38,182 nucleotides of DNA, from positions 1-38,182 of the forward strand of contig JAICPY010000032.1 in assembly GCA_025929585.1 (NCBI GenBank), in the 5' to 3' direction. The position numbers and the translations under genes were made by a program. The notes under the pieces were generated by a model. That model was not told the DNA's origin. It saw only the letters and a list, made by a program, of their open reading frames with translations, and did not search any database. The stretch is from Steroidobacter sp. (GTDB lineage: Bacteria > Pseudomonadota > Gammaproteobacteria > Steroidobacterales > Steroidobacteraceae). The first letter of the stretch is position 1. Each line of letters starts with the position of its first letter. Positions 227 through 38,166 of this stretch are shown here, one piece after another.

Positions 227-255
227 GGGGATAGGGGATGGCGGATAGGGGATAG
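227..255. repeat. Tandem heptamer array, G-rich arm (GGGGATA word)
   Basis: Four 7-bp units (GGGGATA, GGGGATG, GCGGATA, GGGGATA) plus one G lie between tRNA-Pro and the cysS stop codon. No complementary C-rich arm follows before cysS, so this is a single-sided copy. It has the same word as the arrays at 12872-12900 and 28855-28883. The flank TAGTTCGGAACAGG after it resembles TAGTTCGGAGCAGG after the array at 38138-38166. Confidence 0.85.
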
Positions 256-277
256 TTCGGAACAGGTCATTACAGCT

Positions 278-1711
278 TTATGATCGTCGCCAGGAAGTCG
301 TGCCATCGGGTTTGTCCTCCAAAACGACTCCGCGCGCGGTCAATTCGTCACGAATCTCATCGGAGCGTTTGAAGTTCTTGCTGCGACGCGCCTCGCGACG
401 CTCGGCGATCAATCGCTCGATCTCGTTCTCGGAAAGCTGCACGGCGGGTGGCGATTCACGGCTCGCATCCAAATCGGTAGCAGCTACCTTCGCTTTGCGT
501 AGGAATTCCGCGGGGGAAAGGTTCAGTATGCCCAGAACTCTCCCGAGCCTCACGAGCTCTGCTGCCAAAGCACCGGCGCTCGCGTAGTCGCCAGCCGCCT
601 TGGCCCGATTGATCTGCGTAGCAAGATTTTGTAGCGCCGCCAGCGCCTCGGGCGTGTTGAAGTCATCATCCATCGCCGACTCGAACTCAGTCGTCGCGGC
701 TGACGCGGACGAGACCTTCTGCGGCTCGACGTCGCGCAACGCCGTGTAAAGCCGGCTCAACGCCGCATCGGCTTGTTCGAGCTGTTCGAGCGAATAATTG
801 ATGGGGCCGCGATACTGGCTGGAGATCAAGAAGAAGCGCAGCACTTCAGGATCGCGGACGTAGCCCGAGTCGAGCACATCGCGAATGCGAAAGAAGTTGC
901 CGAGCGATTTCGACATCTTCTCGTTGTCGACATTGACGAATCCGTTGTGCATCCAAACTTGCGCGAAGGTGTCATCGGTTGCTGCGCAAGACTGCGCGAT
1001 CTCGTTCTCATGATGCGGAAACTTCAAATCCATCCCGCCGCCATGGATATCGAAGCGCGAGCCCAAGATATCGAAGCTCATCGCGGAGCACTCGATGTGC
1101 CAACCGGGCCGTCCTTCGCCCCACGGAGAGCTCCAACTCGGCTCACCCGGTTTCGCGCGCTTCCATAAAACGAAGTCGAGCGGATCACGCTTCGCCTCAT
1201 CCACGGCAACACGTGCGCCCGCTCGCAAATCAGCAAGCTGTTTGCCGGACAACTTGCCGTAGCCTGCGAATTTCGAGACTGAGTACAGCACGTCACCGTT
1301 GGTGACTACATAGGCATAACCCTTCTCGATGAGCCGCTGCGTCATCGCGACGATGCTGGCGATATGGTGCGTTGCCTTGGGCTCGTAATCGGGGCGCAGA
1401 ATTCCGAGGCGATCGTAATCTTCGTGCATTGACTTCGTGAAACGATCCGTCAGCGCTTGCACGCTCTCGTTGTTCTCGGCCGCACGGGCGATGATCTTGT
1501 CATCGATGTCGGTGATGTTGCGCACGAACGTGACTTTGTAGCCACGATAGGCGAGATATCGGCGCACGATATCGAACGCCAACTTCGATCGCGCATGACC
1601 GATGTGGCAAAAGTCATAAACGGTATCGCCGCAGACATACATGCGAACGATTCCAGGTTGCAGCGGCTCGAATTCTTCTTTGCGGCCGCTCAGCGAATTG
1701 AAAATTTGCAT
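278..1711 (-). CDS. cysS: Cysteinyl-tRNA synthetase
   Basis: Class Ia aminoacyl-tRNA synthetase that charges tRNA-Cys in the cytoplasm. The 477-residue protein has the HIGH signature at 36-39 and KMSKS at 265-269. The zinc ligands that recognise cysteine are conserved (C27, C208, H233, E237, the last two within PHHENEIAQ). The length is slightly above the 461 residues of E. coli CysS. The ATG is 12 bp downstream of the gltX stop codon, so the two synthetase genes probably share a transcript, with gltX upstream. Downstream lie a single heptamer array and the tRNA-Pro gene. No key residue is missing. Confidence 0.98.
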   Translation of the reverse strand: MQIFNSLSGRKEEFEPLQPGIVRMYVCGDTVYDFCHIGHARSKLAFDIVRRYLAYRGYKVTFVRNITDIDDKIIARAAENNESVQALTDRFTKSMHEDYDRLGILRPDYEPKATHHIASIVAMTQRLIEKGYAYVVTNGDVLYSVSKFAGYGKLSGKQLADLRAGARVAVDEAKRDPLDFVLWKRAKPGEPSWSSPWGEGRPGWHIECSAMSFDILGSRFDIHGGGMDLKFPHHENEIAQSCAATDDTFAQVWMHNGFVNVDNEKMSKSLGNFFRIRDVLDSGYVRDPEVLRFFLISSQYRGPINYSLEQLEQADAALSRLYTALRDVEPQKVSSASAATTEFESAMDDDFNTPEALAALQNLATQINRAKAAGDYASAGALAAELVRLGRVLGILNLSPAEFLRKAKVAATDLDASRESPPAVQLSENEIERLIAERREARRSKNFKRSDEIRDELTARGVVLEDKPDGTTSWRRS

Positions 1712-1723
1712 AGGGGTTGCGTG

Positions 1724-3145
1724 TCAAACGCTCGCGAGCTGTTGTGCACTGGACAACCGGCGCTCGATCTCCGCGTCCGGAATGAGCGTAAGCAATGGAG
1801 CCAGCTCTGGTCCGTGCGTCACACCTGTCAGCGCGGCTCTGAGAGGCATAAACAGGCCGGGGCCTTTCTTGCCGGTGGTCTGCCCAATCTCTCGAACCGC
1901 TTGTTTGAAGTCTGCAGCGCCACGCGCGAGAACACTTGCAGCGGATGCGAAGAATTCCGGACCCGCCGCTTTCACGGCTGCTTGCGCATCCGGATCTAAC
2001 TCGAGGTGCGAACCGAATACCACCTTCACCCATTGCGCGGCATCTTGCGGAAACGCAACGTTGTGACGAATCGCCGCGAGAAACGGCATGAGTTTGGATT
2101 CATCCAAGCCAGTGGGCAATTGCGCGGCGGTCCACGTGGAGAACTCCTCCACGCTCAAATGTGCGGCCGCTTCCTTTTGCCAGTGCAACAGTTGAGCATC
2201 GTCGAACTTCGCTGCAGCTCGACCGAGTCGCTGCAGATCGAAGTCTTTCAACATCGCGCTGTGATCTAGCCAACCGTCCGTGACGCAACTGTGCCCCAAC
2301 CTGACGAGGTGATTGCGAACCGCGCTTGGCAGATATCCACGCTCTCTCAAATCTCGCAGACCTAGCGCGCCATGTCTTTTCGATAGCGGCGCGCCGTCCA
2401 TGCCCATAAGTAAGGCGACGTGCGCGTAGCGCGGCACGGGCAAGCTCAATGCGTTCAGGATCAAAATCTGCCGCGGCGTATTCGTCATGTGGTCATCGCC
2501 GCGAAGCACTAGCGTCACGCCCATCAGGGAATCGTCGAGCGCGTTCGAAAAGAAGAACGCGGTGCTCCCATCGGTACGCCTGATGATGAAATCGCCGATG
2601 TCATCGGTATTGAAACGTTGCGCACCATGGACGACGTCCTCGAACTCGACGATCTCTCCCGATGGAACCCGAAATCGCAAGGCCGCAGCCTGGCCTTGCG
2701 AAATTCGCTCGCTAATCTGTTCCGGCGTGAGATCGCGGCAAGTGCCCGGATAGCGCGGAGGTTTCCCAGCGGCCAATTGCCGTTTGCGCGCGATGTTGAG
2801 CTCGGCAGGAGTGCAAAAGCATGGGTAGGTCAATTTCGCAGCATCGAGCTTTTCGAGCCAGTGCTGATAAATATCGCCGCGAAGTTGCTGGCGATAAGGA
2901 GCATGCGCGCCGCCAACATCTGGACCTTCATCCCAATCCAAGCCCAACCAGTGTAGATCCTCGTACAGCGCCTGCATGAACGCATCGGTAGAGCGCGCTT
3001 CGTCCGTATCTTCGATGCGTAGAATGAATCGCCCGCCCGTCTTGCGGGCAGCCAGATAGCTCAACAAGGCGGTACGAGCGTTGCCCAGATGCAGAAAACC
3101 AGTCGGGCTGGGAGCGAAGCGAGTCACCAAGGAGGATGCAGACAT
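1724..3145 (-). CDS. gltX: Glutamyl-tRNA synthetase
   Basis: Class I synthetase charging tRNA-Glu. The 473 residues match the usual length of about 470. The HIGH-type motif is HLGN at 19-22 and the KMSKS-type motif is PLSKRHG at 253-259. The zinc-binding insert has C109, C111 and C136 at the spacing of E. coli C98, C100 and C125, but the position of the fourth ligand (E. coli H127) is Asp138. The gene is first in a likely two-gene operon with cysS. Its start faces the divergent cyclophilin gene across a 220-bp gap. The variant zinc ligand is noted as a finding; the assignment itself is secure. Confidence 0.97.
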   Translation of the reverse strand: MSASSLVTRFAPSPTGFLHLGNARTALLSYLAARKTGGRFILRIEDTDEARSTDAFMQALYEDLHWLGLDWDEGPDVGGAHAPYRQQLRGDIYQHWLEKLDAAKLTYPCFCTPAELNIARKRQLAAGKPPRYPGTCRDLTPEQISERISQGQAAALRFRVPSGEIVEFEDVVHGAQRFNTDDIGDFIIRRTDGSTAFFFSNALDDSLMGVTLVLRGDDHMTNTPRQILILNALSLPVPRYAHVALLMGMDGAPLSKRHGALGLRDLRERGYLPSAVRNHLVRLGHSCVTDGWLDHSAMLKDFDLQRLGRAAAKFDDAQLLHWQKEAAAHLSVEEFSTWTAAQLPTGLDESKLMPFLAAIRHNVAFPQDAAQWVKVVFGSHLELDPDAQAAVKAAGPEFFASAASVLARGAADFKQAVREIGQTTGKKGPGLFMPLRAALTGVTHGPELAPLLTLIPDAEIERRLSSAQQLASV

Positions 3146-3365
3146 GTCGAAGTAGTGCTCTTTGAACTATAAGCGCGATGAGCTCACAAGCGTGCGATTC
3201 GGCGAGATTTCTCAGTTGACCGTCCGAGGCAGCCATTCGCCCGAGTCTTTCGGCTGTGCGCTGATCACAATCCGGCATTCTATACGGGGCTCTTCATTGC
3301 GTCGCGTTCGGTACGCGGGCCAGGCTTTGCTAAGATCGACCATCCACCAAACGCCACGCACAATC

Positions 3366-3926
3366 ATGAGACTACGAACTTTAACTTGTCTTGCCCTGCT
3401 CGCCTTCTGGACATCGGGCCTGAATGCGCAGGAACCCGCACTCGTTCGAGTACACACGAACATGGGCAGTTTTCTGATCGAACTAGATACTGCTCGAGCG
3501 CCGCTGACGACTAAAAACTTCCTGGAGTACGTCCGTTCGGGCCACTACACAGGGACGATCTTCCATCGCGTGATCTCGAACTTCGTCGCACAAGGCGGCG
3601 GCTACGACGAGAAGCTCGTAGAGAAGCCCGTTGGCGTAGCAGTTCCCAATGAGTCCGGTAATGGCCTTTCGAATAGTCGCGGTACGGTGGGGCTTGCACG
3701 CACCGGCGATCCTCACAGTGGCACAGCGCAGTTCTACGTGAATCTCACCGATAACGCCTCATTAGACCCTCAACCCAGTCGATGGGGTTATGCGGTCTTC
3801 GGCCGCATCATCGAAGGCATGGGCACGATCGACAGCATCGGTGCGGTCGCCACCGGCGAGCAAGGCGAATTCGCGAGCGATGTGCCGTTGAAGGCGATCG
3901 TGATCGAGAAGATGGAAGAGCTGTAA
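3366..3926 (+). CDS. Periplasmic peptidyl-prolyl cis-trans isomerase (cyclophilin, PpiA-like)
   Basis: Cyclophilin-type prolyl isomerase that assists protein folding. Starting at the ATG at 3366, the 186-residue protein opens with a typical Sec signal peptide (Arg-rich start, hydrophobic core TCLALLAFWTSG, cleavage near LNA|QEP), placing the enzyme in the periplasm. Cyclophilin motifs follow: FHRVISNFVAQGGGY around residues 58-72 and the GTAQFYVNL active-site strand. An in-frame extension to 3162 exists but would bury the signal peptide, so I reject it. No strong Shine-Dalgarno is visible. It is co-directional with lpxH, separated by about 100 bp of heptameric repeats. The gap 3146-3365 upstream holds no other recognisable feature. 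Confidence 0.93.
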   Translation: MRLRTLTCLALLAFWTSGLNAQEPALVRVHTNMGSFLIELDTARAPLTTKNFLEYVRSGHYTGTIFHRVISNFVAQGGGYDEKLVEKPVGVAVPNESGNGLSNSRGTVGLARTGDPHSGTAQFYVNLTDNASLDPQPSRWGYAVFGRIIEGMGTIDSIGAVATGEQGEFASDVPLKAIVIEKMEEL

Positions 3927-3928
3927 AC

Positions 3929-4023
3929 GGTGAAGGGCGGACGGCGGACGGCGGATGGTGAGGAAGCTTCGCGCGACTGTGTGACCGTGGCCTACAGCCT
4001 ACGATTACCGGTCTACAACCTCT
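3929..4023. repeat. Heptamer array pair between the cyclophilin gene and lpxH
   Basis: The left arm at 3929-3963 is five 7-bp units (GGTGAAG, GGCGGAC twice, GGCGGAT, GGTGAGG), starting just after the cyclophilin stop codon. The right arm at 3989-4023 has pyrimidine-rich heptads of CCTACAG/CCTACGA type, ending just before the lpxH ATG. The order (G-rich first, pyrimidine-rich second) is that of the other dyads, but here the two arms pair poorly with each other. Confidence 0.65.
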
Positions 4024-4027
4024 AACT

Positions 4028-4762
4028 ATGTCTCAGCTCTTCATCTCCGATCTGCATCTCGATGGCGCGCATCCTGAGATCACAGATCAATTTCTGCAGT
4101 TCCTCAACGGTGAAGGGAAGCACGCGCAAGCTCTGTACATCTTGGGCGATCTTTTCGAAGCGTGGATTGGGGACGATGATCCCGATGCGGATAAGCAACG
4201 CGCGGTGCGCGCGCTTCGCGCGATCACGGATTCGGGCGTCAAAACCTATCTGATACACGGCAACAGAGACTTTCTGCTCGGTCGGCGCTTCTGCGCGGAA
4301 ACCGGAGTGCAGTTGCTAAAGGATGGCACGATCATCGATGTCTATGGCCGGCGCGTTCTATTGATGCACGGAGACTCCTTGTGCACCGACGATCCCGCTT
4401 ATCAGCGCTTGCGCCGCATCGTTCGCAACCCGTTGGTTCAATTCGTGATGCGCAGCCTCAGCCTGAAACAGCGCCAGAAGCTCGCCGCTAAAATGCGCGC
4501 AGGCAGCAAAGCACACATCCAATCGATGGATCGCCTGGCGCCGCAGATCATGGACGTCAACGCCGATGAGGTGCTCGCCACGTTTGCTCGCTACGGGGTC
4601 GACTGCCTCGTGCATGGCCACACTCATCGTCCCCACATTCACTCGATCTCAACCGACGGCAAGCAGCTGACGAGAATCGTATTAGGCGATTGGTATGAGC
4701 AAGGCAGCGTGCTGCGCTGGGATGAGAAGGGGTATGAGTTGGCGGGGTTGCAGAGGAAGTGA
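4028..4762 (+). CDS. lpxH: UDP-2,3-diacylglucosamine diphosphatase
   Basis: Peripheral inner-membrane metallophosphoesterase of lipid A synthesis. It hydrolyses UDP-2,3-diacylglucosamine to lipid X and UMP, upstream of LpxB. The 244 residues compare with 240 in E. coli. The dimetal ligands are all visible: D8 and H10 (SDLHLDG), D41 (GDLFEAWIGDD), N79 (HGNRD), H114 (MHGDS), and H196/H198 in HGHTHRPH. The protein is good evidence for a Gram-negative outer membrane. Its TGA stop at 4760-4762 is the first trinucleotide of the inverted-repeat arm shared with miaE, which it faces convergently. Confidence 0.97.
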   Translation: MSQLFISDLHLDGAHPEITDQFLQFLNGEGKHAQALYILGDLFEAWIGDDDPDADKQRAVRALRAITDSGVKTYLIHGNRDFLLGRRFCAETGVQLLKDGTIIDVYGRRVLLMHGDSLCTDDPAYQRLRRIVRNPLVQFVMRSLSLKQRQKLAAKMRAGSKAHIQSMDRLAPQIMDVNADEVLATFARYGVDCLVHGHTHRPHIHSISTDGKQLTRIVLGDWYEQGSVLRWDEKGYELAGLQRK

Positions 4763-4874
4763 TGGAGGTGATGAAGTGACGTAAGTGATGAACGTTGAGA
4801 GACTGAAGCTACACGGGTTCTCTCACTTACTTACATTACTTACATCACTTACATCACTTACATCACCTCCATCA
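4759..4874. repeat. Nonamer inverted-repeat dyad between convergent lpxH and miaE
   Basis: The left arm at 4759-4794 has four 9-bp units (GTGATGGAG, GTGATGAAG, TGACGTAAG, TGATGAACG). The right arm at about 4820-4874 repeats TTACATCAC-type nonamers. TGATGGAGGTGATG at 4760-4773 is a perfect 14-bp reverse complement of CATCACCTCCATCA at 4861-4874. The outermost triplets of this perfect stem are the stop codons of lpxH and of miaE themselves. No U-tract follows the stem, so a standard intrinsic terminator is not obvious, although an RNA hairpin would form on either strand. Confidence 0.92.
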
Positions 4875-5495
4875 GCCGCTTCGCGGCGTTCCCGAATGAA
4901 ATCTGAACTGCTCATCGGGTGCCGTCGCAAGCTCTGCCTCGATTTCAGCAAGCATGGCGAGTCGCTCGCGAACATCCGTTTCCGGTGCGCGTCGCTCAGC
5001 AAGGCGCAAGTAGAGTGATTGGTGCCTCGCTTCCGATTCGGCGAGCGCGCGGTAGAACGTCGCCAGTGGTTCGTTCAGCCTCGGAACGAGGCCGACGAAT
5101 CGCTCGCACGAGCGCGCCTCGATGAGCGCACCGCACAGCAATAAATCGAGTAGCCTAGCGGGCTCATCCCGCCGGAGCGTTCGGCGTAGTCCTTCGGCAT
5201 AACGCGACGGCGACATGCGCTGAAACGGCACATCCAAGTCAACCATGAACTTCTGAACTTGCTCGAAATGACGCAACTCTTCGCGCGCGAGCCGCGATAA
5301 GCGGCTCGTCAAATCTAAGTCCTCTGAATAGGTGAAGATCAAACTGAGCGCAGTCGAGGCTGCCTTTTTCTCGCAGTTCGCGTGATCGACGAGCAATTCT
5401 CGCCAGCGCTCAGCCGCCGCGTCGAACCAGCGAGGATCAGTCGGCGCTAACAGCACCGTCTCCTTCGTCGGCGAACAAACACGCTCGGCACTCAC
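4872..5495 (-). CDS. miaE: tRNA-(ms2io6A)-hydroxylase
   Basis: Non-haem diiron monooxygenase that hydroxylates the isopentenyl group of ms2i6A at position 37 of tRNAs reading UNN codons, to give ms2io6A. The 207-residue all-helical protein shows the ferritin-like ligand set: E42, E73 with H76 (EELRH), E126, and E155 with H158 (SEARHQSLY). The start is a GTG at 5495 that overlaps the kinase stop codon as GTGA, so translation is probably coupled to the upstream kinase gene. It needs MiaA and MiaB, which are not in this window. The stop codon lies inside the repeat dyad shared with lpxH. Confidence 0.93.
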   Translation of the reverse strand: MSAERVCSPTKETVLLAPTDPRWFDAAAERWRELLVDHANCEKKAASTALSLIFTYSEDLDLTSRLSRLAREELRHFEQVQKFMVDLDVPFQRMSPSRYAEGLRRTLRRDEPARLLDLLLCGALIEARSCERFVGLVPRLNEPLATFYRALAESEARHQSLYLRLAERRAPETDVRERLAMLAEIEAELATAPDEQFRFHSGTPRSG

Positions 5496-8329: not shown

Positions 8330-8331
8330 GA

Positions 8332-9699: not shown

Positions 9700-9727
9700 G
9701 GAGTATAAGAGCCAGGGCGCACTCGAA

Positions 9728-11005: not shown

Positions 11006-11012
11006 AGGGAAA

Positions 11013-11142
11013 GGGGGGTAATGATCAGGGGGTAGGGGTAGTAAAGCGGCGTGCGACACATTGGGGTGCGAGTGGCTGACACCGCTGGGTATTGCGCGTA
11101 CGAGTGTGCGCCTTCTTGCTATCCCCTTGTCATTACCCCCTA
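11013..11142. repeat. Inverted-repeat dyad between accD and folC
   Basis: The G-rich arm spans about 11013-11042 (GGGGGTA and GGGGTAG words around GATCA). The C-rich arm at 11119-11142 reads CTATCCCCTTGTCATTACCCCC and runs into CTA, the accD stop codon on the minus strand. GGGGGTAATGA at 11014-11024 is a perfect reverse complement of TCATTACCCCC at 11130-11140. The G-rich arm starts 8 bp from the folC ATG. The period is less regular than in the other dyads. Confidence 0.8.
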
Positions 11143-12859: not shown

Positions 12860-12871
12860 GGGAAGAGAGAA

Positions 12872-12979
12872 GCGGATAGGGGATGGCGGATAGCGGATAG
12901 TGAAGAAAGAAGCGACAGATGCCCGAAGCGGTTCCTCTGCCTATCCCCTATCGCCTATCCGCTATCCCCTTCTATTATC
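12872..12979. repeat. Heptamer inverted-repeat dyad between fimV and truA
   Basis: The left arm at 12872-12900 is GCGGATA, GGGGATG, GCGGATA, GCGGATA plus G. The right arm at 12941-12979 is CTATCCC, CTATCGC, CTATCCG, CTATCCC and two degenerate units. Over 29 bp, 23 positions of the arms are complementary. The right arm ends against CTA, the fimV stop codon. Read on the minus strand, its TAG triplets fall in all three frames. Confidence 0.92.
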
Positions 12980-18316: not shown

Positions 18317-18326
18317 AGAGGAAGAA

Positions 18327-18355
18327 GCGGTTAGCGGTTAGCGGTTAGCGGTTAG
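18327..18355. repeat. Perfect tandem array of four GCGGTTA heptamers
   Basis: Four identical 7-bp units plus a G, starting 11 bp from the aroC start codon. TAG occurs at each unit junction, so three frames are closed on the plus strand. No complementary arm follows before the prmB stop, apart from a short CCGTTA at 18414-18419. The same word appears at the folE2 stop 20 kb away. Confidence 0.92.
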
Positions 18356-21898: not shown

Positions 21899-22375
21899 AT
21901 GCACGTAAGCCACATCGATCTGAATGCGCCCAAAGCTCAGCTCTATGCTCAGCTTGCAGAAGAACTGCGCGCGTTGATCGCAGGGGAATCCGACTGGATC
22001 GCGAATCTCGCCAACGCCTCGGCGCTGCTCTATCACTCGTTGCCGAACGTGAATTGGGCCGGCTTTTATTTGTTGCGGCAGGATGAGCTCGTCGTCGGTC
22101 CCTTCCAGGGCCGTCCTGCCTGCGTCCGAATCAAGATGGGCCGAGGGGTGTGCGGCACCGCGGCTGCTCGGCGAACCACGATCATCGTTCCGAACGTGAA
22201 TGAGTTTCCAGGACACATCGCCTGCGATTCCGCCTCCAATTCAGAAATCGTCGTGCCGATGATTCAGCACAACGAGCTCTTGGGAGTATTGGATATCGAC
22301 AGCCCGACACAGGGCCGGTTCGACGAGGAAGACCGTCAGGGATTAGAGGCGTTTGTCGAGGCCCTAATTGCGTGA
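21899..22375 (+). CDS. msrC: Free methionine-(R)-sulfoxide reductase (GAF domain, MsrC/YebR type)
   Basis: Reduces free L-methionine-(R)-sulfoxide in the cytoplasm, with thioredoxin as likely partner. The 158-residue protein is a single GAF domain. Three cysteines C75, C85 and C109 have the 10 and 24 residue spacing of the E. coli catalytic and resolving cysteines. Family motifs WAGFYL, GPFQGRPAC and GRGVCGTA are present. An upstream in-frame extension to 21821 overlaps epmA and is rejected. It is last in the SCO1-psd-epmA operon. The stop codon is the first triplet of a heptamer array. Confidence 0.94.
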   Translation: MHVSHIDLNAPKAQLYAQLAEELRALIAGESDWIANLANASALLYHSLPNVNWAGFYLLRQDELVVGPFQGRPACVRIKMGRGVCGTAAARRTTIIVPNVNEFPGHIACDSASNSEIVVPMIQHNELLGVLDIDSPTQGRFDEEDRQGLEAFVEALIA

Positions 22376-22484
22376 CTAGTGACTAGTGACTCGTGATTTG
22401 CAAGAGACGGAGCACTAACCGAGCGATGTCCGGCCGCTCGCCTCCTACGACCCGCTACCCGCTAATCACGACTCACTTCCCTTA
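22373..22484. repeat. Heptamer inverted-repeat dyad between msrC and efp
   Basis: The left arm at 22373-22400 (TGACTAG, TGACTAG, TGACTCG, TGATTTG) begins with the TGA stop of msrC itself and closes all three frames. The right arm at about 22445-22484 has CCGCTAC-type heptads, then AATCACGACTCAC, and ends at the efp stop codon. GTGACTCGTGATT at 22386-22398 matches the reverse complement of 22464-22476 at 12 of 13 positions. It lies between convergent genes. Confidence 0.88.
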
Positions 22485-23051
22485 CTGCTTGGCTCTCGCG
22501 ATGTACTCACCCGTGCGAGTATCGACGCGAATGACTTCGCCTTCGTTGATGAATAATGGCACGCGAACGACGGCGCCGGTCTCAAGCTTGGCGGGCTTTC
22601 CGCCACCCGTCGCGGTGTCACCACGCAAACCCGGATCAGTCTCGATGATCTTCAGCTCGACGTGAGCGGGCGGAGTCACATTCAAAGGGACGCCATTCCA
22701 CAGCATGACGGTGCAATTCATGCCGTCCTTCAACCAGATCGCTCCATCGCCGAGCGCCTCTTTACCGGCTGTGTACTGCTCGAAAGTATCGGGCACCATG
22801 AAGTGCCAAAATTCACCGTCGGTGTACAGATACTGCATCTCCGATTCGACGACGTCCGCGGATTCCACGCTATCGCCAGACTTGAAGGTGCGCTCGATGA
22901 CGCGGCCCGTCTTGAGATTGCGGACCTTTACGCGATTGAATGCCTGCCCCTTACCGGGTTTGACCATCTCATTCTCGACGATCGCGTACGGATCGTTTTC
23001 GAGGATGATCTTCAGGCCCGACTTGAATTCGTTCGTGGAGAAACTGCCCAT
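22482..23051 (-). CDS. efp: Elongation factor P
   Basis: Relieves ribosome stalling at polyproline stretches. The 189 residues fit the three-domain EF-P. The modified loop is VKPGKGQAF with K34, the lysine that takes beta-lysine in the EpmAB route; the Arg34 used by the rhamnosylation route of Pseudomonas is not present. The gene is divergent from epmB across 178 bp and convergent with the msrC operon. Both modifying enzymes are therefore adjacent, but no epmC (hydroxylase) is present here. Confidence 0.98.
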
Positions 23052-26447: not shown

Positions 26448-26455
26448 AAGCGGAC

Positions 26456-26584
26456 GTGTACACGTGTAGAAGTGTGAAAGTGTAGGCGTCGGAGTGAAAC
26501 GACGCGGGTAAGCCAGCCTAAACTTCTCTATCCGGCTGTCTTCTCTGACCTCTACACGTTTACACCATACACCCGTACACACTA
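26456..26584. repeat. Octamer inverted-repeat dyad between the fimX-like gene and parC
   Basis: The left arm at 26456-26487 has four 8-bp units (GTGTACAC, GTGTAGAA, GTGTGAAA, GTGTAGGC). The right arm at 26550-26581 has CTCTACAC, GTTTACAC, CATACACC, CGTACACA, and runs into CTA, the parC stop codon. The left arm begins 8 bp after the fimX-like stop and closes all three plus-strand frames (TAG, TGA, TAG). The word is quite different from the GATAG and GGTTAG families, but the design is the same. Confidence 0.88.
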
Positions 26585-28837: not shown

Positions 28838-28854
28838 GATGTCGAAATCTAGAA

Positions 28855-28998
28855 GGCGATAGGGGATAGCGGATAGGCGATAGGTGTCTCAAGGAGATGC
28901 ATGGTCCAAAACATTGGGAGTACGTTTCAGCGAGGCCGGCTGCAAGTAGCACGCCGCCGTGCTCCGACTATCCCCCATCCGGTATCCCCTATCGCCTT
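28855..28998. repeat. Heptamer inverted-repeat dyad between parE and parC
   Basis: The left arm at 28855-28883 is GGCGATA, GGGGATA, GCGGATA, GGCGATA plus G. The right arm at 28968-28996 is its reverse complement at 26 of 29 positions, the best conserved of the GATA-word dyads. The arms are separated by 84 bp. On the plus strand the left arm has TAG in all three frames. The right arm ends 10 bp from the parE stop codon. Confidence 0.93.
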
Positions 28999-29006
28999 CT
29001 TTCTTC

Positions 29007-30899: not shown

Positions 30900-30960
30900 T
30901 TATTCGCGCGAGCGCTAAAGGAAGAGAGCGGCGCGGATTCTAGCACGCGACCACGCGCGC

Positions 30961-31061
30961 TAGTCCGTAGTCCGCAGTCTGTGGTCTGCGGCCGGAGGAG
31001 AAGCTAGCAAGCGAACCACGCTTCGGCTGCAGACTGCGGACTAGGGACTGCCGACTCTCCG
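30961..31061. repeat. Heptamer inverted-repeat dyad between the DUF3501 gene and parE
   Basis: The left arm at 30961-30988 is TAGTCCG, TAGTCCG, CAGTCTG, TGGTCTG. The right arm at 31027-31061 is CTGCAGA, CTGCGGA, CTAGGGA, CTGCCGA, CTCTCCG, close to the DUF3501 stop codon at 31071-31069. The reverse complement of the right arm (AGTCCCTAGTCCGCAGTCTGC) uses the same word as the left arm. This word is not shared with the other loci. Confidence 0.87.
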
Positions 31062-31068
31062 CGTTCTT

Positions 31069-31659: not shown

Positions 31660-31668
31660 AGAGGCTAC

Positions 31669-31772
31669 GTGATGAAGATGATGAAAGTGATGGAGGTGAT
31701 GTAGGTCAGAAAGTCGGAAGTGCAGGATCTTGCATCCATCACTTTCATCACTTTCGTCACCTACATCACTCC
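31669..31772. repeat. Nonamer inverted-repeat dyad between the Fe-S oxidoreductase and DUF3501 genes
   Basis: The left arm at 31669-31704 is GTGATGAAG, ATGATGAAA, GTGATGGAG, GTGATGTAG. The right arm at 31737-31772 is CATCACTTT twice, CGTCACCTA, CATCACTCC, next to the upstream gene's stop codon. TGATGAAAGTGATGGA at 31679-31694 is a perfect 16-bp reverse complement of 31735-31750, with a 40-bp loop. GTGATGGAGGTGATG (31687-31701) is identical to 4759-4773 in the lpxH-miaE dyad. Confidence 0.93.
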
Positions 31773-31775
31773 GCC

Positions 31776-33125
31776 TCAGATTCCATACGCCATCCGCAAC
31801 AACTTGAGCGGATGCGTAGGTGCTTTCGCGTTGTCGAGGCCAGACTCGATTTGATGCCCCGCCATTGGACAATCGCTGGAGTAAAAATCCGCGTCCGAAT
31901 CGGCGACTCGTCGGACGACCGGGCGCCCGATTTTCATCGAGATATCGCGAAACTCGCGTTTGACACCATAAGTGCCGTTGTGTCCGGAGCAACGCTCGAT
32001 CGGATCCACTTGCGTCTCGGGCACGAGCATCAAGACGTCGCGAGTTTTGAGGCCAAGATTCTGCACTCGGGTGTGACACGGCACGTGGTAGGTGATCTTG
32101 CCCAGCTTGCGCACGAAATCCGTTCGTAAGAGCCCGGCTTTATGTCTCGCCCAGAGATATTCGAACGGATCGAACATTGCATCGCGAACCTTCTGTACGC
32201 GCGCATCCTCCGGAAACATCAACGGCAGCTCTTGCTTGAACATCAGCGTGCAAGAAGGCACGGGCGTCACGATGTCCCAACCTTCATCGACCCAGCGAAC
32301 CAATTCCGGGATATTGGCTTCCTTGTATTTCTCGATCGTTTCCAGATCGCCGATTTCCAACTTCGGCATGCCGCAACAGCGCTCCAGATTCGCAATGGTT
32401 ACCGCAATACCGTTGTGCTCGAAAATTGCCGCTAGATCTTCGCCGAGCGCGGGCTCGTTGCGATTTCCGTAGCACGTTGCGAACAGCACCACGCGACCGC
32501 TGGTATCGCCGGCCGCCTTCACCTCGAGCGCGGGATGTTCTTTCGCGCGGTGACGCTTGCGATACGTGTTGCTGTGGTAGTCGGGAATCGGCGCCCTCGG
32601 GTCCACACCGAGAGTCTTATCGAGCATGGCGCGGCCGATGGCGGTCTTGTTGACGGCGTTCACGATGCCGGCGACGACGGGAATGCCGGCAATGCTGCCG
32701 ACAGCATCCGTCGAGCTCAAGATCTTGTCGCGCGTGCGCACCGAGTGATGCTTGAACTTATACGCCTTCGCTCGCAGCATCAGATGCGGGAAATCGACGT
32801 TCCAAGGATGCGGCGGCACGTAAGGACATTTGGACATGTAGCACATGTCACATAGATAACAATGATCGACGACGTCCCAGTACACCTTCTTGTCGACCGC
32901 CTCGACCTCGCCTGTGCTGGACTCATCGACTGCATCGAACAAGGTCGGGAAGGCGTTGCAAAGACTGAAACAACGTCGGCAGCCGTGACAAATATCGAAG
33001 ATCCGCTCGAGCTCTTTGAACAGCGATTGCTCGTTGGAGTAATCCGGATCCTTCCACGCGATGGGATGCCGCGTCGGCGCCTCGAGACTTCCTTCGCGAG
33101 CTGAGCTTGAGTCAGATTTGGACAC
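31776..33125 (-). CDS. GlpC/HdrD-like (Fe-S) oxidoreductase subunit
   Basis: A 449-residue soluble protein with two ferredoxin-type clusters and cysteine-rich CCG domains, as in GlpC and heterodisulfide reductase subunit D. From the GTG at 33125: first cluster C46, C49, C52, C56 (CHGCRRCFSLC), second cluster C89, C92, C95, C100 (CYLCDMCYMSKCP, with four residues before the last Cys), CCG-like segment ERCCGMPKLEIG, and a variant ERCSGHNGTYG. A longer frame to TTG 33203 reaches into a hairpin and is unlikely; GAGG lies 10 nt before the GTG. It probably transfers electrons. The substrate is unknown, and it is linked with rubrerythrin and DUF3501. Confidence 0.87.
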   Translation of the reverse strand: MSKSDSSSAREGSLEAPTRHPIAWKDPDYSNEQSLFKELERIFDICHGCRRCFSLCNAFPTLFDAVDESSTGEVEAVDKKVYWDVVDHCYLCDMCYMSKCPYVPPHPWNVDFPHLMLRAKAYKFKHHSVRTRDKILSSTDAVGSIAGIPVVAGIVNAVNKTAIGRAMLDKTLGVDPRAPIPDYHSNTYRKRHRAKEHPALEVKAAGDTSGRVVLFATCYGNRNEPALGEDLAAIFEHNGIAVTIANLERCCGMPKLEIGDLETIEKYKEANIPELVRWVDEGWDIVTPVPSCTLMFKQELPLMFPEDARVQKVRDAMFDPFEYLWARHKAGLLRTDFVRKLGKITYHVPCHTRVQNLGLKTRDVLMLVPETQVDPIERCSGHNGTYGVKREFRDISMKIGRPVVRRVADSDADFYSSDCPMAGHQIESGLDNAKAPTHPLKLLRMAYGI

Positions 33126-33189
33126 GCGGCTAAGTCCTCGGGTAGAGGCGAGATGTTGAAATCCACACGGACGTGGGACGGTGAGAACG

Positions 33190-33235
33190 GCTGAAGGTCG
33201 CAAGGCATATCGGAAGCCTTGCGCAAGCCTTCAGC
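33190..33235 (-). terminator. Strong two-part hairpin between rubrerythrin and the Fe-S oxidoreductase
   Basis: GCTGAAGG at 33190-33197 pairs with CCTTCAGC at 33228-33235, and inside it GCAAGGC at 33200-33206 pairs with GCCTTGC at 33216-33222 around a 9-nt loop. There is no U-run, so it may be an attenuating or mRNA-stabilising hairpin that lets rubrerythrin be made in excess over the downstream genes, rather than a full terminator. Confidence 0.5.
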
Positions 33236-33256
33236 CTATATGCCATCGAATTCGCT

Positions 33257-33673
33257 TTAGAGCGTATCCAAGGCCTTTTGGAACCGATTTGCGTGCGAGC
33301 GCTCGGCTTTCGCCAGCGTCTCGAACCAATCGGCAATTTCTTCGAACCCTTCATCGCGCGCTTGCTTGGCCATGCCCGGGTACATGTCGGTGTACTCGTG
33401 CGTCTCGCCTGCAATCGCCGCCTTCAGATTCGCGCCAGTCGGTCCGATCGGAAGGCCGGTCGCGGGATCACCGACCGCTTCCAAGTACTCCAAGTGTCCG
33501 TGCGCATGTCCCGTTTCACCCTCAGCGGTGGAGCGGAACACGGCAGCAACGTCGTTGTAGCCTTCGACATCGGCTTTCGCTGCGAAGTAGAGGTAGCGGC
33601 GATTGGCTTGTGACTCGCCGGCAAATGCGTCCTTCAAATTCTTTTCCGTGCCCGTACCCTTCAGACTTTTCAT
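33257..33673 (-). CDS. Rubrerythrin-type diiron protein without rubredoxin domain
   Basis: A 138-residue four-helix-bundle protein expected to reduce hydrogen peroxide. The diiron ligands are E20, E53 with H56 (GETGH), E90 with E93, and E124 with H127 (AERSH). The C-terminal rubredoxin domain of classical rubrerythrins, with its CxxC pairs, is missing, so electrons must come from another protein, possibly from the neighbouring Fe-S oxidoreductase. The start is set by GAGG 8 nt before the ATG at 33673; an upstream extension to 33721 is rejected. It is the first gene of the trio. A 15-bp palindrome lies 130 bp upstream. Confidence 0.93.
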
Positions 33674-33802
33674 TGCAGGATCCTCGCTTCTATGGACAAA
33701 ACCGAAACCGGCAACCGCCACGGCCGCGCCGTAGTGCCGGGCCTTAGGAACCGGTCCGGCATTTCGACCCCGCGAAACCGCTGAATGGGGGCGAACGCCG
33801 CT

Positions 33803-33817
33803 TTAGACCTAGTCTAA
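33803..33817. promoter_or_regulatory. Palindrome TTAGAC-N3-GTCTAA in the rubrerythrin/xseB divergent gap
   Basis: A perfect 6-bp inverted repeat with 3-bp spacer lies near the middle of the 268-bp gap between the divergent rubrerythrin and xseB genes. Its position fits an operator for a redox or iron-responsive dimeric regulator, but I do not recognise a defined consensus. The rest of the gap (33674-33941) shows no gene. Confidence 0.45.
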
Positions 33818-33941
33818 CCTGACAGAAATCTATGCCCGGCCGTGCGGCAAGTCAACGTCGAGAACCACCGTGCTTCACGGTGATCATTTGACCGTCCACG
33901 CGCCGGCATGCAAGCTTGCCGCGCTTCAACCAGCCCAACGC

Positions 33942-34232
33942 ATGCACGTGACCGCTCAAAACGCAAAGCCCAGCAATGTCGATTCGCCGATGGTCGACTT
34001 CGAACGATCTCTCACCGAGTTGGAGACCATCGTCGAAAAGCTCGAACAAGGGGATCTCACCTTGGACGAATCCTTGAAGCAATTCGAGCGCGGCGTGCAG
34101 TTGGCGCGCACATGTCAAAGTGCTTTAAAGGAAGCGGAGCAAAAAGTCGAGATCCTGCTCCGCAAGAGTGGCGACCCTGAGAAGTTCGATGCCGGACAGT
34201 ACGGCAACGAAGATGAGGTCGACGAAACTTAG
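33942..34232 (+). CDS. xseB: Exodeoxyribonuclease VII small subunit
   Basis: Small subunit of ExoVII, which degrades single-stranded DNA with XseA (not in this window). The coiled-coil motif is clear: [20 protein letters not shown], then [19 protein letters not shown] and the [11 protein letters not shown] helix. From ATG 33942 it has 96 residues; from ATG 33990 it has 80, as in E. coli. Neither has a clear Shine-Dalgarno, so the start is uncertain. It is followed 5 bp later by ispA, the standard xseB-ispA-dxs order. Confidence 0.93.
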
Positions 34233-34237
34233 CAGCC

Positions 34238-35140
34238 GTGCAGAGCCCATCCGACTTTGCAGCGCTTCTGCTTCAGTGGCAGCAGCGAATCGAACGCGAG
34301 CTATCCGAGAGGCTACCGGCTGCTCAATCCGAGCCATCACGTCTGCACGAAGCAATGCGGTATGCCGTACTTGGAGGCGGCAAACGCGTGCGCCCCGCGC
34401 TCGTCTACGCTACTGCGACCGCGCTGCAACTGCCTTTATCTGCCGTCGACGCAGTGGCATGTGCGATAGAGCTCATACACGTGTATTCGCTGGTCCATGA
34501 TGACCTGCCCGCGATGGACAACGACGATCTACGTAGAGGCAGGCCCACTTGCCACAAGGCCTTCGATGAGGCGACAGCGATTCTCGCGGGCGACTCACTT
34601 CAAGTGCTGGCCTTCGAGATTCTCGCGAGTGATCCTGGCTTGCCGAACGATGCATCGATTCGATTGCGGTTGGTCCAGCTGCTAGCTGCCGCGAGCGGGA
34701 CGCACGGCATGGCTGGCGGTCAGGCTCTGGATCTCGCTGCACTCAATCGGCAACTGTCGATAAACGAAATAGAAACGATGCACGCACGCAAGACGGGAGC
34801 GTTGATTCGCGCATCCGTCATGATGGCTGCAGCGTGTGCTCCTGGGATCGGCGAAAACGTGACCCGCGCCTTGCATGCCTATGCGACGGAAATCGGGCTC
34901 GCGTTCCAGATCCAGGACGATTTACTCGATGTCGAAGGCGATCCTCGTTTACTCGGCAAAGCCGTGGGCGCGGATCAGGCGCTCAATAAGCCGACCTATC
35001 CTTCCATAGCAGGACTCGATGCATCACGCGAGCGCGTGCGCGAGCTACACGATCGAGCTTTGCGAGCGCTGCAAGCGCCCGGACTTTCCAGCACACCTCT
35101 CATCGCAATTTCGAACTGGCTGCTCCATCGAAAAAGTTAA
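34238..35140 (+). CDS. ispA: Farnesyl diphosphate synthase
   Basis: Condenses isopentenyl diphosphate with DMAPP and geranyl diphosphate to farnesyl diphosphate. The 300 residues have the first Asp-rich motif [10 protein letters not shown] (D88, D89, D94) and the second motif QDDLLD (D227, D228, D231); [10 protein letters not shown] at 46-55 binds the allylic pyrophosphate. The start is GTG at 34238, 5 bp after the xseB stop. It feeds undecaprenyl phosphate, ubiquinone and other prenyl pathways. Confidence 0.96.
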
Positions 35141-35307
35141 ATGGCGCATCCCTAACGCCATCCTACCAAGACCACGAAGCTCTGAAGTTGAGCGGTCCTT
35201 GCTGTAAACTCTCGCGCGATTCATCGGTTTGTCATGATTCATCCGACAAACGCCCGATATGGCTGAGACACTCGCATGAGCAGCGAAACGCTTCTGACAC
35301 TTTCAGC

Positions 35308-37194
35308 ATGAATGCCGGCACTCAGTATCCGCTCCTGACGCAGATCGAATCTCCCGCCGACCTGCGCAATCTGCCAGCGTCAGATCTCGAAGCGCTCGCC
35401 GCCGAGTTGCGTCAATACTTGATTGAGACCGTAAGCCAGATGGGTGGCCACTTCGCCGCCGGTCTCGGAACGGTCGAGCTCACGGTCGCGCTCCATTATG
35501 TCTTTGAGACGCCGCATGACAGGCTGGTGTGGGACGTGGGGCATCAGGCCTATCCGCATAAAGTCCTGACCGGACGCCGCGACCGGCTGCAAACCATCAA
35601 GTGCAAAGACGGGCTCGCTCCCTTCCCCACTCGCAGCGAAAGCGCGTTCGACACCTTCGGCGTGGGCCATTCCAGCACCTCGATAAGCGCAGCGTTGGGT
35701 ATGGCGTTGGCCGCATCACGGCGCGGTGAAGAGCGCCGAGTCGTCGCGGTGATCGGCGACGGCGCGATGAGCGCAGGAATGGCGTTCGAGGCGCTGAATC
35801 ACGCCGGTAGCTTGGACGTGAATATGCTCGTCGTCTTGAACGACAACGACATGTCGATCTCCGAGAACGTCGGCGCATTCTCCAATTACTTTGCGCGTGT
35901 CCTCTCCGGCAAGCTCTACGCGACGCTTCGCGAGGGCAGCAAGAAAGTTTTGAAGCGGATGCCGACGGTTTGGGAGCTCGCGCGCCGTTCCGAAGAGCAC
36001 ATGAAAGGCATGGTCTTGCCAGGCACGATCTTCGAGGAACTCGGGTTCAACTACATCGGTCCGATCGACGGTCACGATGTCGGCGCGCTGGTTGCAACGC
36101 TGAAGAACCTGCGCGATCTCAAAGGTCCTCAGTTTTTGCACGTGATTACACGCAAAGGCAAAGGCTATGCGCCGGCGGAAGCCGATCCGATCAAATGGCA
36201 TGGGCCGGGCCCGTTCGATCCGAAGAGCGGGGTGATCTTCAAAGAGAAGACGAGTGGGCCGAGCTACTCGCAGGTTTTCGGGAATTGGATGTGCGATATG
36301 GCCGAGCTCGATCCGAGTGTCGTCGCTATTACTCCGGCCATGCGGGAAGGATCCGGTTTGGTCGAATACTCCAAGCGTTTTCCCGACCGCTATTTCGACG
36401 TGGCGATTGCCGAACAACATGCCGTCACGCTCGCCGCCGGCATGGCTTGCGACGGTTTGAAACCCGTGGTGGCAATCTACTCGACCTTCTTGCAGCGCGC
36501 TTATGATCAACTGATCCACGATGTGGCGCTTCAAAATCTGCCCGTGACGTTTGCTGTGGATCGCGCCGGCTTAGTCGGAGGCGATGGCGCAACTCATCAA
36601 GGCAGTTACGATCTGTCGTATCTGCGCTGCATCCCGAATCTCACCATCATGGCGCCTGCCGATGAAAACGAATGCCGCCAGATGCTCTACACGGCGACTC
36701 AGTTAGGCGCGCCGGCCGCCGTGCGTTACCCGCGCGGACAAGGTTCGGGTGCGGCGATCGAATCTGATATGCAGATGCTCGCGGTCGGCAAGAGCCAGCT
36801 TCGCCGCGAGGGCCGTAGCGGATTGGCGATATTCGCGGTCGGCGCGATGGTGCCGATGTGCGAGCAAGTCGCCATTGCGCTCGATGCGACCCTGGTGAAT
36901 TTACGCTTCATCAAGCCGCTTGATGAGGAGCTCATCTTGCGCGTGGCTGCCACTCATCGCGCGATCGTCACTGTCGAGGAGAATGTGGTGGCTGGCGGTG
37001 CGGGAAGCGCAATTGCCGAGGTGCTTGCTGCGCACGGCGTCGCGTTGCCGCTCATGCATCTAGGTATTCCAGATCGATTCATCGAACACGGCTCACGCCA
37101 GGATTGTCTGGCCGCTGCCGGTCTGGACCTGGGTTCGATCGAGAGTTCGATCACTCGGTGGTGGCGCGTGCCCGCGCGCGCTGCGGGACTGTGA
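35308..37194 (+). CDS. dxs: 1-deoxy-D-xylulose-5-phosphate synthase
   Basis: Thiamine diphosphate enzyme that makes DXP from pyruvate and glyceraldehyde 3-phosphate, first step of the MEP isoprenoid pathway. From ATG 35308 it has 628 residues (E. coli 620). The ThDP motif GDGAMSAG is at 150-157 with N178/N180 following (LNDND); active-site histidines lie in [20 protein letters not shown] and VGHSSTS. An in-frame extension to 35188 has no homology and is rejected. The 167-bp spacer after ispA (35141-35307) shows no clear promoter. Confidence 0.97.
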
Positions 37195-37215
37195 TCAAGA
37201 AGGCGGCCCGAGGCA

Positions 37216-37236
37216 GAAGAAAGTCTGTCTTTCTTT
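37216..37236 (+). terminator. Weak hairpin after dxs
   Basis: AAGAAAG at 37217-37223 and CTTTCTT at 37229-37235 form a 7-bp stem with loop TCTGT, extendable by one G-U pair, 22 bp after the dxs stop codon. It is A/T-rich and only a short T-stretch follows, so termination would be partial at best. Confidence 0.3.
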
Positions 37237-37266
37237 AGGTTGAAGGGTCGGCTGCCGGGGTTGCTT

Positions 37267-37272
37267 TATACT
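37267..37272 (+). promoter_or_regulatory. Possible -10 box TATACT upstream of folE2
   Basis: TATACT lies 46 bp before the folE2 ATG, with a leader of about 40 nt. No convincing -35 hexamer is present at 16-18 bp, so it may be activator dependent or chance. Zur-type control is known for folE2 in some bacteria, but I see no recognisable Zur box. Confidence 0.3.
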
Positions 37273-37317
37273 GCCGCCAGCCCCACTACCAGGCTTTCGA
37301 CTTAAATCTCAGCGCCC

Positions 37318-38145
37318 ATGGCCACCCCTCCCGTCTCCGCAATCTCTCCCGCCAAAGCCGCCATCGAGGACGTGCAAGGCCGCGCGGATTCGCGTCGCAT
37401 TCCCATCAATAAAGTGGGGATCAAGGATGTTTATCACCCGATCCGAGTCAAAGATCGATCACGAGGCGAACAGCACACGATCGCCAACTTCAACATGTAC
37501 GTCGCACTGCCTCACAATTTCAAAGGCACGCATATGTCGCGGTTCGTGGAAGTGCTGCATCGGAACGAGCGGGAGATTTCCGTCGAGTCGTTTCGCGACA
37601 TCTTGATCGAGATGACGCAGAAGCTCGATGCCGAGTCAGGTCACATCGAGATGGATTTCCCTTACTTCGTCATGAAGAAGGCACCCGTTTCGGGCGTGGA
37701 AAGTCTGATGGACTATAAAGCCTCCTTGATCGGCGAGTTCCACGGCGGGGAGGCAGAGCTGTGGCTGAAGGTGGTCGTCGCCGCGACCAGTTTGTGCCCC
37801 TGCTCCAAGAAGATTTCCAACTACGGCGCGCACAATCAGCGCTCGCACATCACGATCAAGGCCCGAGTCGAGGGTCACATCTGGCTCGAGGAGTTGATCG
37901 ACATCGCCGAACAAGAGGCCTCATGCGAGGTGTACGGCATCCTGAAACGCCCTGACGAGAAATACGTCACCGAGCGCGCGTACGACAACCCAAAATTCGT
38001 CGAAGACATCGTGCGAGACGTCGCCGTTCGCCTAAACGCGGAAGAACGCGTTCGTGCCTACGTCGTGGAAGCGGAGAATTTCGAATCCATCCACAATCAT
38101 TCGGCGTATGCGCTGATTGAGAAGGACAAGGAACGAAGCGGTTAG
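37318..38145 (+). CDS. folE2: GTP cyclohydrolase FolE2 (type IB)
   Basis: Converts GTP to 7,8-dihydroneopterin triphosphate, the first step of folate and related pterin synthesis. This COG1469 family can use manganese or other metals and replaces zinc-dependent FolE in many bacteria. The 275 residues show the conserved [20 protein letters not shown] block with C160 and C162, the family's active-site region. The last residues Ser-Gly and the TAG stop are encoded by a GCGGTTA repeat that continues into the intergenic region. Confidence 0.96.
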
Positions 38146-38166
38146 CGGTTGGCGGTTAGCGGTTAG
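38138..38166. repeat. Tandem array of four GCGGTTA-type heptamers at the folE2 stop
   Basis: GCGGTTA, GCGGTTG, GCGGTTA, GCGGTTA plus G. The first unit spans the last codons of folE2 and supplies its TAG stop. The word is that of the aroC-side array at 18327-18355. The window ends 16 bp later, so a complementary arm cannot be assessed. Confidence 0.9.

Follow-up and report, generated by a model that had tools for sequence, protein, structure and literature searches.

Introduction

Degenerate heptamer arrays are known from cyanobacteria as STRRs, and inverted pairing is not known to be one of their features. Here we describe arrays that are paired. They were found in a 38,182-nucleotide stretch of DNA from Steroidobacter sp. 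(the window: contig JAICPY010000032.1 of assembly GCA_025929585.1), where a word of 7 to 9 bp is repeated in tandem in one arm and recurs, as its reverse complement, in a second arm beyond a loop. Each such inverted pair is referred to below as a dyad.

The closest counterparts in print are the pairs of Geobacter metallireducens and the GGGAATC inverted pairs of Xanthomonas, and the closest in organisation are the REPINs; all statements on these systems refer to the parts of the papers that were consulted. Geobacter metallireducens has several classes of tandem 7- to 8-mers paired on opposite strands at variable distance (Aklujkar 2009, PMC2700814). Classes 1 to 3 hold 3 to 5 units per site, the classes number 24, 21 and 8 pairs, and the pairs were read as possible IHF/HU sites. 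One pair, between proBA, sits where a sister species has a different conserved sequence. In Xanthomonas, GGGAATC arrays prefer four units, form 70 and 75 inverted pairs in two genomes, and have their G-rich strand near stop codons (Rehm 2015, PMC4692102). REPINs and BIMEs are dispersed, hairpin-forming extragenic inverted doublets with class-specific ends and a less conserved spacer (Bertels and Rainey 2011, PMC3116915). The TAACTGA repeats of Beggiatoaceae were described mainly as direct repeats upstream of start codons; one case is inverted (MacGregor 2015, PMC4679880). No paper uniting the Geobacter, Xanthomonas, TAACTGA and REPIN reports was found in the open full-text literature, most of the subscription literature lying outside that search. 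A first-pass annotation of the window had called this paired form one that it could not name; the opposite-strand 7- to 8-mers of 2009 and the inverted heptamers of 2015 are close precedents.

The Steroidobacter dyads resemble the Geobacter pairs in having several word classes in one genome, 3 to 5 units, and opposite-strand pairs at variable distance. They differ in their words and in number, with tens of pairs per class in Geobacter and 48 long-loop dyads in 577.8 kb here, and they include nonamers besides Geobacter-like heptamers and octamers. A loop-side box, a polarity count and a comparison of orthologous gaps, all given below, were not found in the consulted parts of the Geobacter account. 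With the TAACTGA repeats they share intergenic heptamer arrays, and a Sedimenticola contig (L092) carries a TAACTGA-type dyad whose arms measure 76 bp. The kind was already known piecemeal, and its multi-word form described here is new. New are the unit count with or without G-tracts, the CAGA/TCTG-like box, loops without a core, the absent U-tract, and the absence of a link to RAYT or reverse transcriptase genes.

The arrays form dispersed subfamilies across the genome

The window is contig C85 of a draft assembly of 5.13 Mb in 297 contigs. The genome sample comprised the window and parts of contigs C1 to C35 (577.8 of 5131 kb), a non-random choice made in contig order, in which a codon-usage script called 481 genes (85% coding). 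Tandem Repeats Finder (TRF; period 6-10, score ≥40) detected 83 intergenic and 16 mostly coding arrays in this sample, compared with 3 in one dinucleotide-shuffled copy. The period was 7 in 61 of the 99 arrays, 8 in 19 and 9 in 17. An ungapped inverted-repeat scan of the gaps (score ≥12), which also counts ordinary short-loop hairpins, was positive in 77 of 285 gaps against 1.7 expected. The loop was at least 15 in 63 of these inverted repeats, and 48 also had an arm periodicity of at least 0.6. These 48 are termed long-loop array dyads; three are doubtful as arrays (L038:628, L020:9456 and L025:17377), and the count omits five or more array dyads whose loops are 3-13. Scaled linearly to 5.13 Mb, the number would be about 430. 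The first-pass annotation had named hundreds of dyads in a genome-wide scan for period and inverted repeats as support for a family, and over the 577.8 kb arrays were found far beyond the few of the window.

It had also held that the arrays are not one dispersed repeat copied around. This needs correcting in that the words are dispersed subfamilies, several per genome. The pattern GSGGATA has 177 exact matches in the genome (96+81) and GTTGACR has 99 (40+59), several per array in each case. Moreover, when the arms of 63 dyads were compared with each other by BLAST, 79 of 81 matches were on the plus strand.

The dyads are placed mainly at the 3' ends of genes. Inverted repeats occupied 22 of 60 convergent and 46 of 148 tandem gaps, and 9 of 77 divergent gaps. 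For 66 inverted repeats counted by hand, the distance from an arm to the called gene end was at most 22 bp on 60 of 74 stop-codon sides; the corresponding hand count for start-codon sides of tandem gaps was 15 of 42. On 19 of 74 stop-codon sides, the arm overlapped the gene end. An excess of dyads flush with both gene borders was also considered and was not supported, with 28 of 66 observed and 25.9 expected. Arrays were found within 130 bp of the end at 8 of 61 examined contig ends (1.9 expected), so that the repeats may be breaking the assembly. Array-bearing ends were seen in the window (38137-38166) and in L007, L012, L016, L023, L028, L032 and L036.

Arrays and dyads in the window

All twelve arrays listed for the window by the first-pass annotation were recovered. 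TRF detected eleven of period 7-9, starting at 226, 3936, 4755, 12871, 18326, 22372, 26456, 28854, 30961, 31669 and 38137, some with low scores (32 at 26456 and 31 at 30961), and the degenerate array at 11013 was read by eye. The annotation had further given second arms at nine loci, in reverse complement except at 3929. Seven were found by the scan and that of 11013 by eye; at the 3936 locus a complementary second arm was not evident, in agreement with the annotation. Folded as RNA, eight window dyads gave z values of -3.3 to -9.6 relative to dinucleotide shuffles. Two arms outside the dyad pairs abut the contig ends, a right arm at 3-34, absent from the list of the annotation, and a left arm at 38137-38166. 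The features are as follows.

3-34, strand not assigned: C-rich right arm, GGGGGTA/GGGGATAGTAAGA class, by eye; its left arm would lie beyond the contig end
226-255, plus: single GGGGATA array of about 4 units, partner arm not found (TRF)
3936-3955, plus: single GGCGGAC array after a cyclophilin-type PPIase gene, second arm not seen (TRF)
4755-4790, plus: left arm, 9-bp unit GGAAGTGAT (TRF, inverted-repeat scan; fold z -9.6)
4829-4874, minus: right arm of the 4755 dyad (TRF)
11013-11046, plus: left arm GGGGGTAATGATCAGGGGGTAGGGGTAG, composite class (by eye; fold z -3.3)
11114-11142, minus: right arm of the 11013 dyad, differing from the left one by indels (by eye)
12868-12900, plus: left arm, four GSGGATA units, between truA and fimV-like genes (TRF, scan; fold z -5.3)
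12941-12973, minus: right arm of the 12868 dyad (TRF, scan)
18326-18355, plus: single GCGGTTA array (TRF)
22372-22401, plus: left arm GTGACTA/GTGACTC, containing the stop codon of a GAF-domain gene (TRF, scan)
22450-22486, minus: right arm of the 22372 dyad, before the end of the EF-P gene (TRF, scan)
26456-26485, plus: left arm, 8-bp unit GTGTAGAA (TRF, scan)
26548-26576, minus: right arm of the 26456 dyad, before the end of a gyrA-like gene (scan)
28851-28883, plus: left arm AGAAG-GCGATAG-GGGATAG-CGGATAG-GCGATAG, between gyrB-like and gyrA-like genes (TRF, scan; fold z -8.3)
28968-29000, minus: right arm of the 28851 dyad (scan)
30961-30981, plus: left arm TAGTCCG/CAGTCTG, G and C about equal (TRF, scan)
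31027-31056, minus: right arm of the 30961 dyad (TRF)
31661-31706, plus: left arm, 9-bp unit GTGATGAAG (TRF, scan)
31737-31777, minus: right arm of the 31661 dyad (TRF, scan)
38137-38166, plus: array of four GCGGTTA units, containing the stop codon of a folE2-like gene; a partner, if there is one, would be beyond the contig end

The arm at 3-34 is of the same class as arms at L006:13357, L011:1508 and L036:4369. The left arm at 4755 contains the stop codon of a phosphoesterase gene (4028-4762), and that at 11013 overlaps the start of a called folC-like open reading frame, whose true start may be further downstream. The genes next to the arrays are ordinary ones (cysS-like, truA, fimV-like, aroC, EF-P, gyrA, gyrB, DUF3501 and folE2). 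The best named match of the window TruA is Povalibacter uvarum (66%), followed by a metagenome-assembled genome (MAG) of Steroidobacteraceae (64%). A search of Rfam at gathering thresholds returned a tRNA as its sole match.

Architecture of the dyads

When arms were defined by TRF only, 50 of 286 gaps had at least two arrays, and the best pair was complementary in 41 of them; compared in direct orientation, these pairs matched in 1. Both arms had the same period in 36 of 36 pairs, the pairs having been preselected for at least 75% identity. Arms measure about 20-40 bp and usually hold three to five tandem units, with an occasional long array (18 units in L023). Loops span 25-131 bp in the 48 long-loop array dyads, and a few array dyads have shorter ones. 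Like REPINs in the consulted parts of their description, the dyads place inverted, class-specific copies round a spacer; their arms differ in being tandem arrays instead of REP palindromes, a judgement made by reading and not by a palindrome scan. Two or more pairs among the 41 are hybrids that combine different words (L032:13111-13264 and L040:1676-1790). In both, a GTTGACG-type arm faces a GTGACGG-type arm, which looks like the outcome of a swap or a rewriting of one arm.

The polarity of the dyads is strong. G exceeds C in the first arm in 43 of the 48, C exceeds G in 3, and the two are equal in 2. The G-rich arm also came first in all 34 inverted repeats obtained from 40 extra loci (two word classes, three genomes; 6 gave none), many of which had been picked for a plus-then-minus pair. 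By hand count, at least 28 plus-then-minus pairs within 300 bp and 0 minus-then-plus pairs occur among the GSGGATA and GTTGACR matches listed. The first-pass annotation had seen no dyad of opposite polarity; this is correct for the window and does not extend to the genome sample. A clear reversed dyad, L032:1448-1530, has its C-rich arm first and a CAGA box at the outer end, and is perhaps formed by the facing arms of two neighbouring dyads. The annotation had described the leading arm as G-rich or stop-bearing. The G-rich part mostly holds, whereas the stop-bearing part is not general: the first arm is the richer in stops in 39 of 48 dyads and the second in 4, with equal numbers in 5, and in dyads of Sedimenticola (L092) and Thioalkalivibrio (L049) they lie mostly or wholly in the second arm. 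Stop codons were rejected as the cause of the polarity, which is kept by the stop-free word GCGGACA of relative G007.

The arms are composite. At many loci the consensus reads GAAG-GGCGATA-GGGGATA-GSGGATA-GGGGATA-GTCAGA, and in another form GTTGAC units are followed by GGCCAGA. A CAGA/TCTG-like box at the loop side is present in about half of the dyads, with CAGA as its commonest form; AGA to the left and TCT to the right of the loop occur jointly in 26 of 48 dyads, compared with 9.1 in mononucleotide shuffles.

Four units are commonest for GSGGATA (40/63), GTTGACR (32/48), GCGGTTA (9/13), other heptamers (8/10) and nonamers (7/17), and are not for octamers (5/19, with five units in 7/19) and GTGACGG (3/14); in these counts TRF cut-offs trim short arrays and some loci were picked by three-unit patterns. 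In the consulted parts of the Xanthomonas report, one GGGAATC-type word with a GGG run in every unit was read as forming G-quadruplexes. In contrast, the GTTGACR, GCGGTTA and GTGATGAAG words found here lack a GGG run. A G-quadruplex was rejected as the reason for four units, as GTTGACR, which has no GGG, favours four too; octamers and GTGACGG are exceptions to the preference. Furthermore, related words of 7, 8 and 9 bp exist (GTGACGG, GTGACGAG and GTGATGAAG), each one base longer in every unit, a hint of a step in which words are rewritten at the level of the unit.

Partner arms share word and period, with no locus-specific matching detected

The first-pass annotation had proposed that the arms of a locus evolve together, and had taken this to imply selection for pairing or a copying mechanism. 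The proposal was not supported, as matching at the level of variants was not detected. With TRF-only arms, the identity over the best 20 nt was 0.895 within a locus and 0.884 with other loci of the same fine word class, and the partner was strictly the best match at 1 of 32 loci; periodic arms match in several registers, which limits the power of this test for fine co-variation. An earlier and looser test had the partner as best match at 7 of 39 loci against 4.6 expected (mean identities 0.74 and 0.58). A permutation over looser classes that mix words favours the true partners (0.898 versus 0.716), which amounts to saying that the two arms have one word in common. Matching of word and period is sufficient to explain the pairing. 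What does hold of the annotation is one architecture with many words: the polarity is strong and the dyads are numerous.

Orthologous gaps in related species

Thirteen same-genus genomes were available for comparison, among them Povalibacter uvarum (G008, 98% complete) and the incomplete drafts G004 (91%) and G007 (75%). Synteny of the window with sister species is good. The same gap often holds different words in sister species, which the first-pass annotation had named as support for its reading. The gyrB-gyrA gap has GGGGATA here, GCGGATA in G008, a GTGAGTG-like word in G004 and a GCGGTTA-like word in G007. The truA-fimV gap has GCGGATA here, GCGGATG in G008 and GTGAGTG in G004, and reading by eye gave a GGGACTGG-like pair for G013. 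The other relatives have no dyad in these two gaps. In G006 the truA and fimV genes overlap and gyrB and gyrA are 6 bp apart; the latter gap measures 43-242 bp in the other eight. The gap between the DUF3501 and CCG-domain genes is 116 bp and holds the 31661 dyad here, and it is -7 to 42 bp and dyad-free in six readable relatives. In the gap orthologous to that of the single 18326 array, G008 has nearly the same single-arm word and G007 a GTTGACG dyad.

Co-occupied orthologous gaps numbered 6 in G008 (4.0 expected), 3 in G004 (3.0) and 4 in G007 (2.9). Different words in one gap are, on these small numbers, near the expectation for independent arrival, and switching of words in place is not required. 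Pairs of gaps of at least 35 bp in both genomes gave 14 coincidences between this genome and a relative, two of which are not arrays by eye (the G008 gyrA and G012 gyrB gaps). Of the remaining 12, 3 have an identical or nearly identical word, all with G008, and 9 have different words.

The subfamilies are patchy. Exact matches to the GSGGATA and to the GTTGACR pattern were each found in 3 of 40 genomes, our own included, and the nonamer GTGATGRAG was found in our genome only among those searched. Beyond the genus, we read 80 named TruA loci of about 4-21 kb each, one of them from P. uvarum. Array-like dyads were seen in eight others: Thioalkalivibrio denitrificans (L049), Sedimenticola (L058 and L092), L064, Thiodiazotropha (L070), a Chromatiales MAG with several dyads (L085), Dokdonella (L093) and Endozoicomonas (L100). 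Most of the 80 loci, a thin sample per genome, have none. The words outside the genus include TTCAAGA, CGCAAAG, CACAGAG and TAACTGA. Of 398 Pseudomonadota genomes, 8 contain exact CACAGAG triples, with the purine-rich arm first in the two closely paired cases, and 1 of 398 contains exact CGCAAAG triples; such patterns are too strict to map the family. A CGCAAAG-type inverted repeat like those of L085 and L070 lies in our genome at L025:17377-17537, suggesting that some words may be common to different families. CGTCATTCCCGCG...CGGGAATCCA-type palindromes (L152, L153 and L098) stand beside arrays in G008, are also found in Dyella, and look like a separate repeat family.

How the dyads may arise and spread

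The observations to be explained are a family with subfamilies, inverted pairing, polarity, placement, and presence or absence between species. We lean towards REPIN-like doublets that would spread and then be tolerated, or useful, as hairpins at the 3' ends of genes. In the manner of REPINs, members would multiply as inverted pairs, in several subfamilies per genome that would each keep a word of its own. Dyads would persist chiefly next to stop codons and seldom between divergent genes, and would probably be transcribed as long hairpins without a U-tract at mRNA 3' ends. Different subfamilies would have expanded in different sister species, by which one gap can hold different words. Spread as doublets is supported by presence and absence between species, as in the DUF3501-CCG gap.

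Several results weigh against this reading. If doublets moved as units, their loops should move with them, and no shared core was found: 97 loops gave 7 matches of 12-18 bp at E≤0.01 and none longer. Five shuffles of the loops gave 0-1 such matches, and several of the real ones lie in leftover repeat units. Compared with the whole genome, 13 loops gave a single match other than themselves at E 7e-5, and four more at E 0.1-0.8. The spacers thereby differ from those of REPINs, as described in the parts consulted, in having neither a set length (25-131 nt in the 48 long-loop dyads) nor a conserved core. The RAYT link of REPINs was not found either: Y1_Tnp (RAYT-type) genes were not found in the dyad-rich drafts G004 and G007, and arrays are absent from the 3.3-kb locus of the single Y1_Tnp gene of our genome. 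Excision or fresh insertion was not observed, the relatives being too distant for exact empty sites. Finally, the two or more hybrid dyads do not fit easily, and the GTGACGG, GTGACGAG and GTGATGAAG words would require all units to change in concert, for which simple transposition gives no account.

Specific origins were rejected in turn. Y1_Tnp genes do not track the dyads across ten same-genus genomes (one here and five in G002), which speaks against a RAYT/REP origin. By eye, similar direct repeats of a few hundred bp (L172:1-480 and 1895-2330) appear to flank our own Y1_Tnp gene. Templating by a reverse transcriptase was dismissed on the ground that the dyad-bearing G008 has no RVT_1 match. 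Loops as filler copied from the genome were rejected after no source was found for the 13 of 48 loops searched, the long ones, with the three doubtful arrays omitted. Remnants of miniature inverted-repeat transposable elements or insertion sequences were likewise rejected, as no homologous core between terminal inverted repeats was found among the 97 loops or for the 13 compared with the genome.

Selection for bidirectional terminators or 3'-end stabilisers is an unlikely alternative, in which the transcript of either flanking gene would enter the G-rich arm first and fold into a long hairpin. In its favour, dyads lie at gene 3' ends and some overlap a stop codon, inverted repeats are rarer in divergent gaps, the window dyads fold strongly as RNA, and Xanthomonas transcripts start or stop more often at G-quadruplex-type than at control repeats in the consulted parts of that report (PMC4692102). 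However, a U-tract was not found, with a T fraction of 0.25 in the 12 nt after the 3' arm and at least 50% T in only 4 of 71 cases, and an intrinsic terminator with a T-run was rejected on these figures. Arms show little locus-specific matching, and several sister species have no dyad in the same gap; the DUF3501 and CCG-domain genes, separated by a dyad here, are almost adjacent in six relatives, as are gyrB and gyrA in G006, where truA and fimV overlap. An identical orientation bias would follow if selection acted against the disruption of promoters. A detector of canonical terminators scored 0 of 74 dyad ends and 6 of 194 others. As it picked up no more than 3 of 35 in Pseudomonas contigs, and found few in relatives poor in dyads as well, it is too weak for any inference on replacement of canonical terminators. 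Local mutation alone, in which slippage builds an array and template switching at a quasi-palindrome copies it inverted, locus by locus, seems improbable to us. The tandem structure, long arrays such as that of L023 and single arms beside dyads fit such a process; the same composite arms at distant loci, partner arms that share little beyond class-level variants, and a whole dyad with its loop in a gap that is short in six relatives do not.

Limited arm length, the preference of several classes for four units and a loop-side box in about half of the dyads could suit a protein, and paired binding sites of a DNA-bending or global regulator have been proposed for Geobacter (IHF/HU; PMC2700814, in the parts consulted). 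We consider such sites very unlikely here, as loops of 25-131 bp in 48 dyads and three periods in one genome do not suit one site, and the window neighbours are ordinary housekeeping genes. The least credible explanation, with hardly any probability in our estimate, is that G-rich words are added to the two 3' ends of a break by a telomerase-like or another templated process, and that the break is then sealed with filler. It would account for polarity, unrelated loops and a word shared by both arms. Against it, besides the lack of an RVT_1 match in G008, which counts against templating enzymes of that type, the sole RVT_1 match here (G000:C77:47574-48242) has an internal TGA in the matched frame, and the recurring order of variants and the outer GAAG ends look inherited, not freshly templated.

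A broader extension of the doublet reading is possible, and we offer it only tentatively as the less probable form: a large superfamily of spreading hairpin doublets, patchy in proteobacteria, with some four 7-9 bp units in tandem per arm and a CAGA/TCTG-like box at the loop side, without RAYT or RVT_1 movers and with unit-level rewriting that changes all units of both arms together. If this were true, rewriting would turn GTGACGG into GTGACGAG and GTGATGAAG, new subfamilies would keep arising, and its branches would include the pairs of Geobacter, the GGGAATC pairs of Xanthomonas and the TAACTGA arrays. The Geobacter, Xanthomonas and TAACTGA reports each gave a function of their own. One architecture independent of G-tracts, stop codons and any single word would undercut explanations tied to a particular word, and such arrays may break assemblies. 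The question would then shift to what builds and moves paired arrays.

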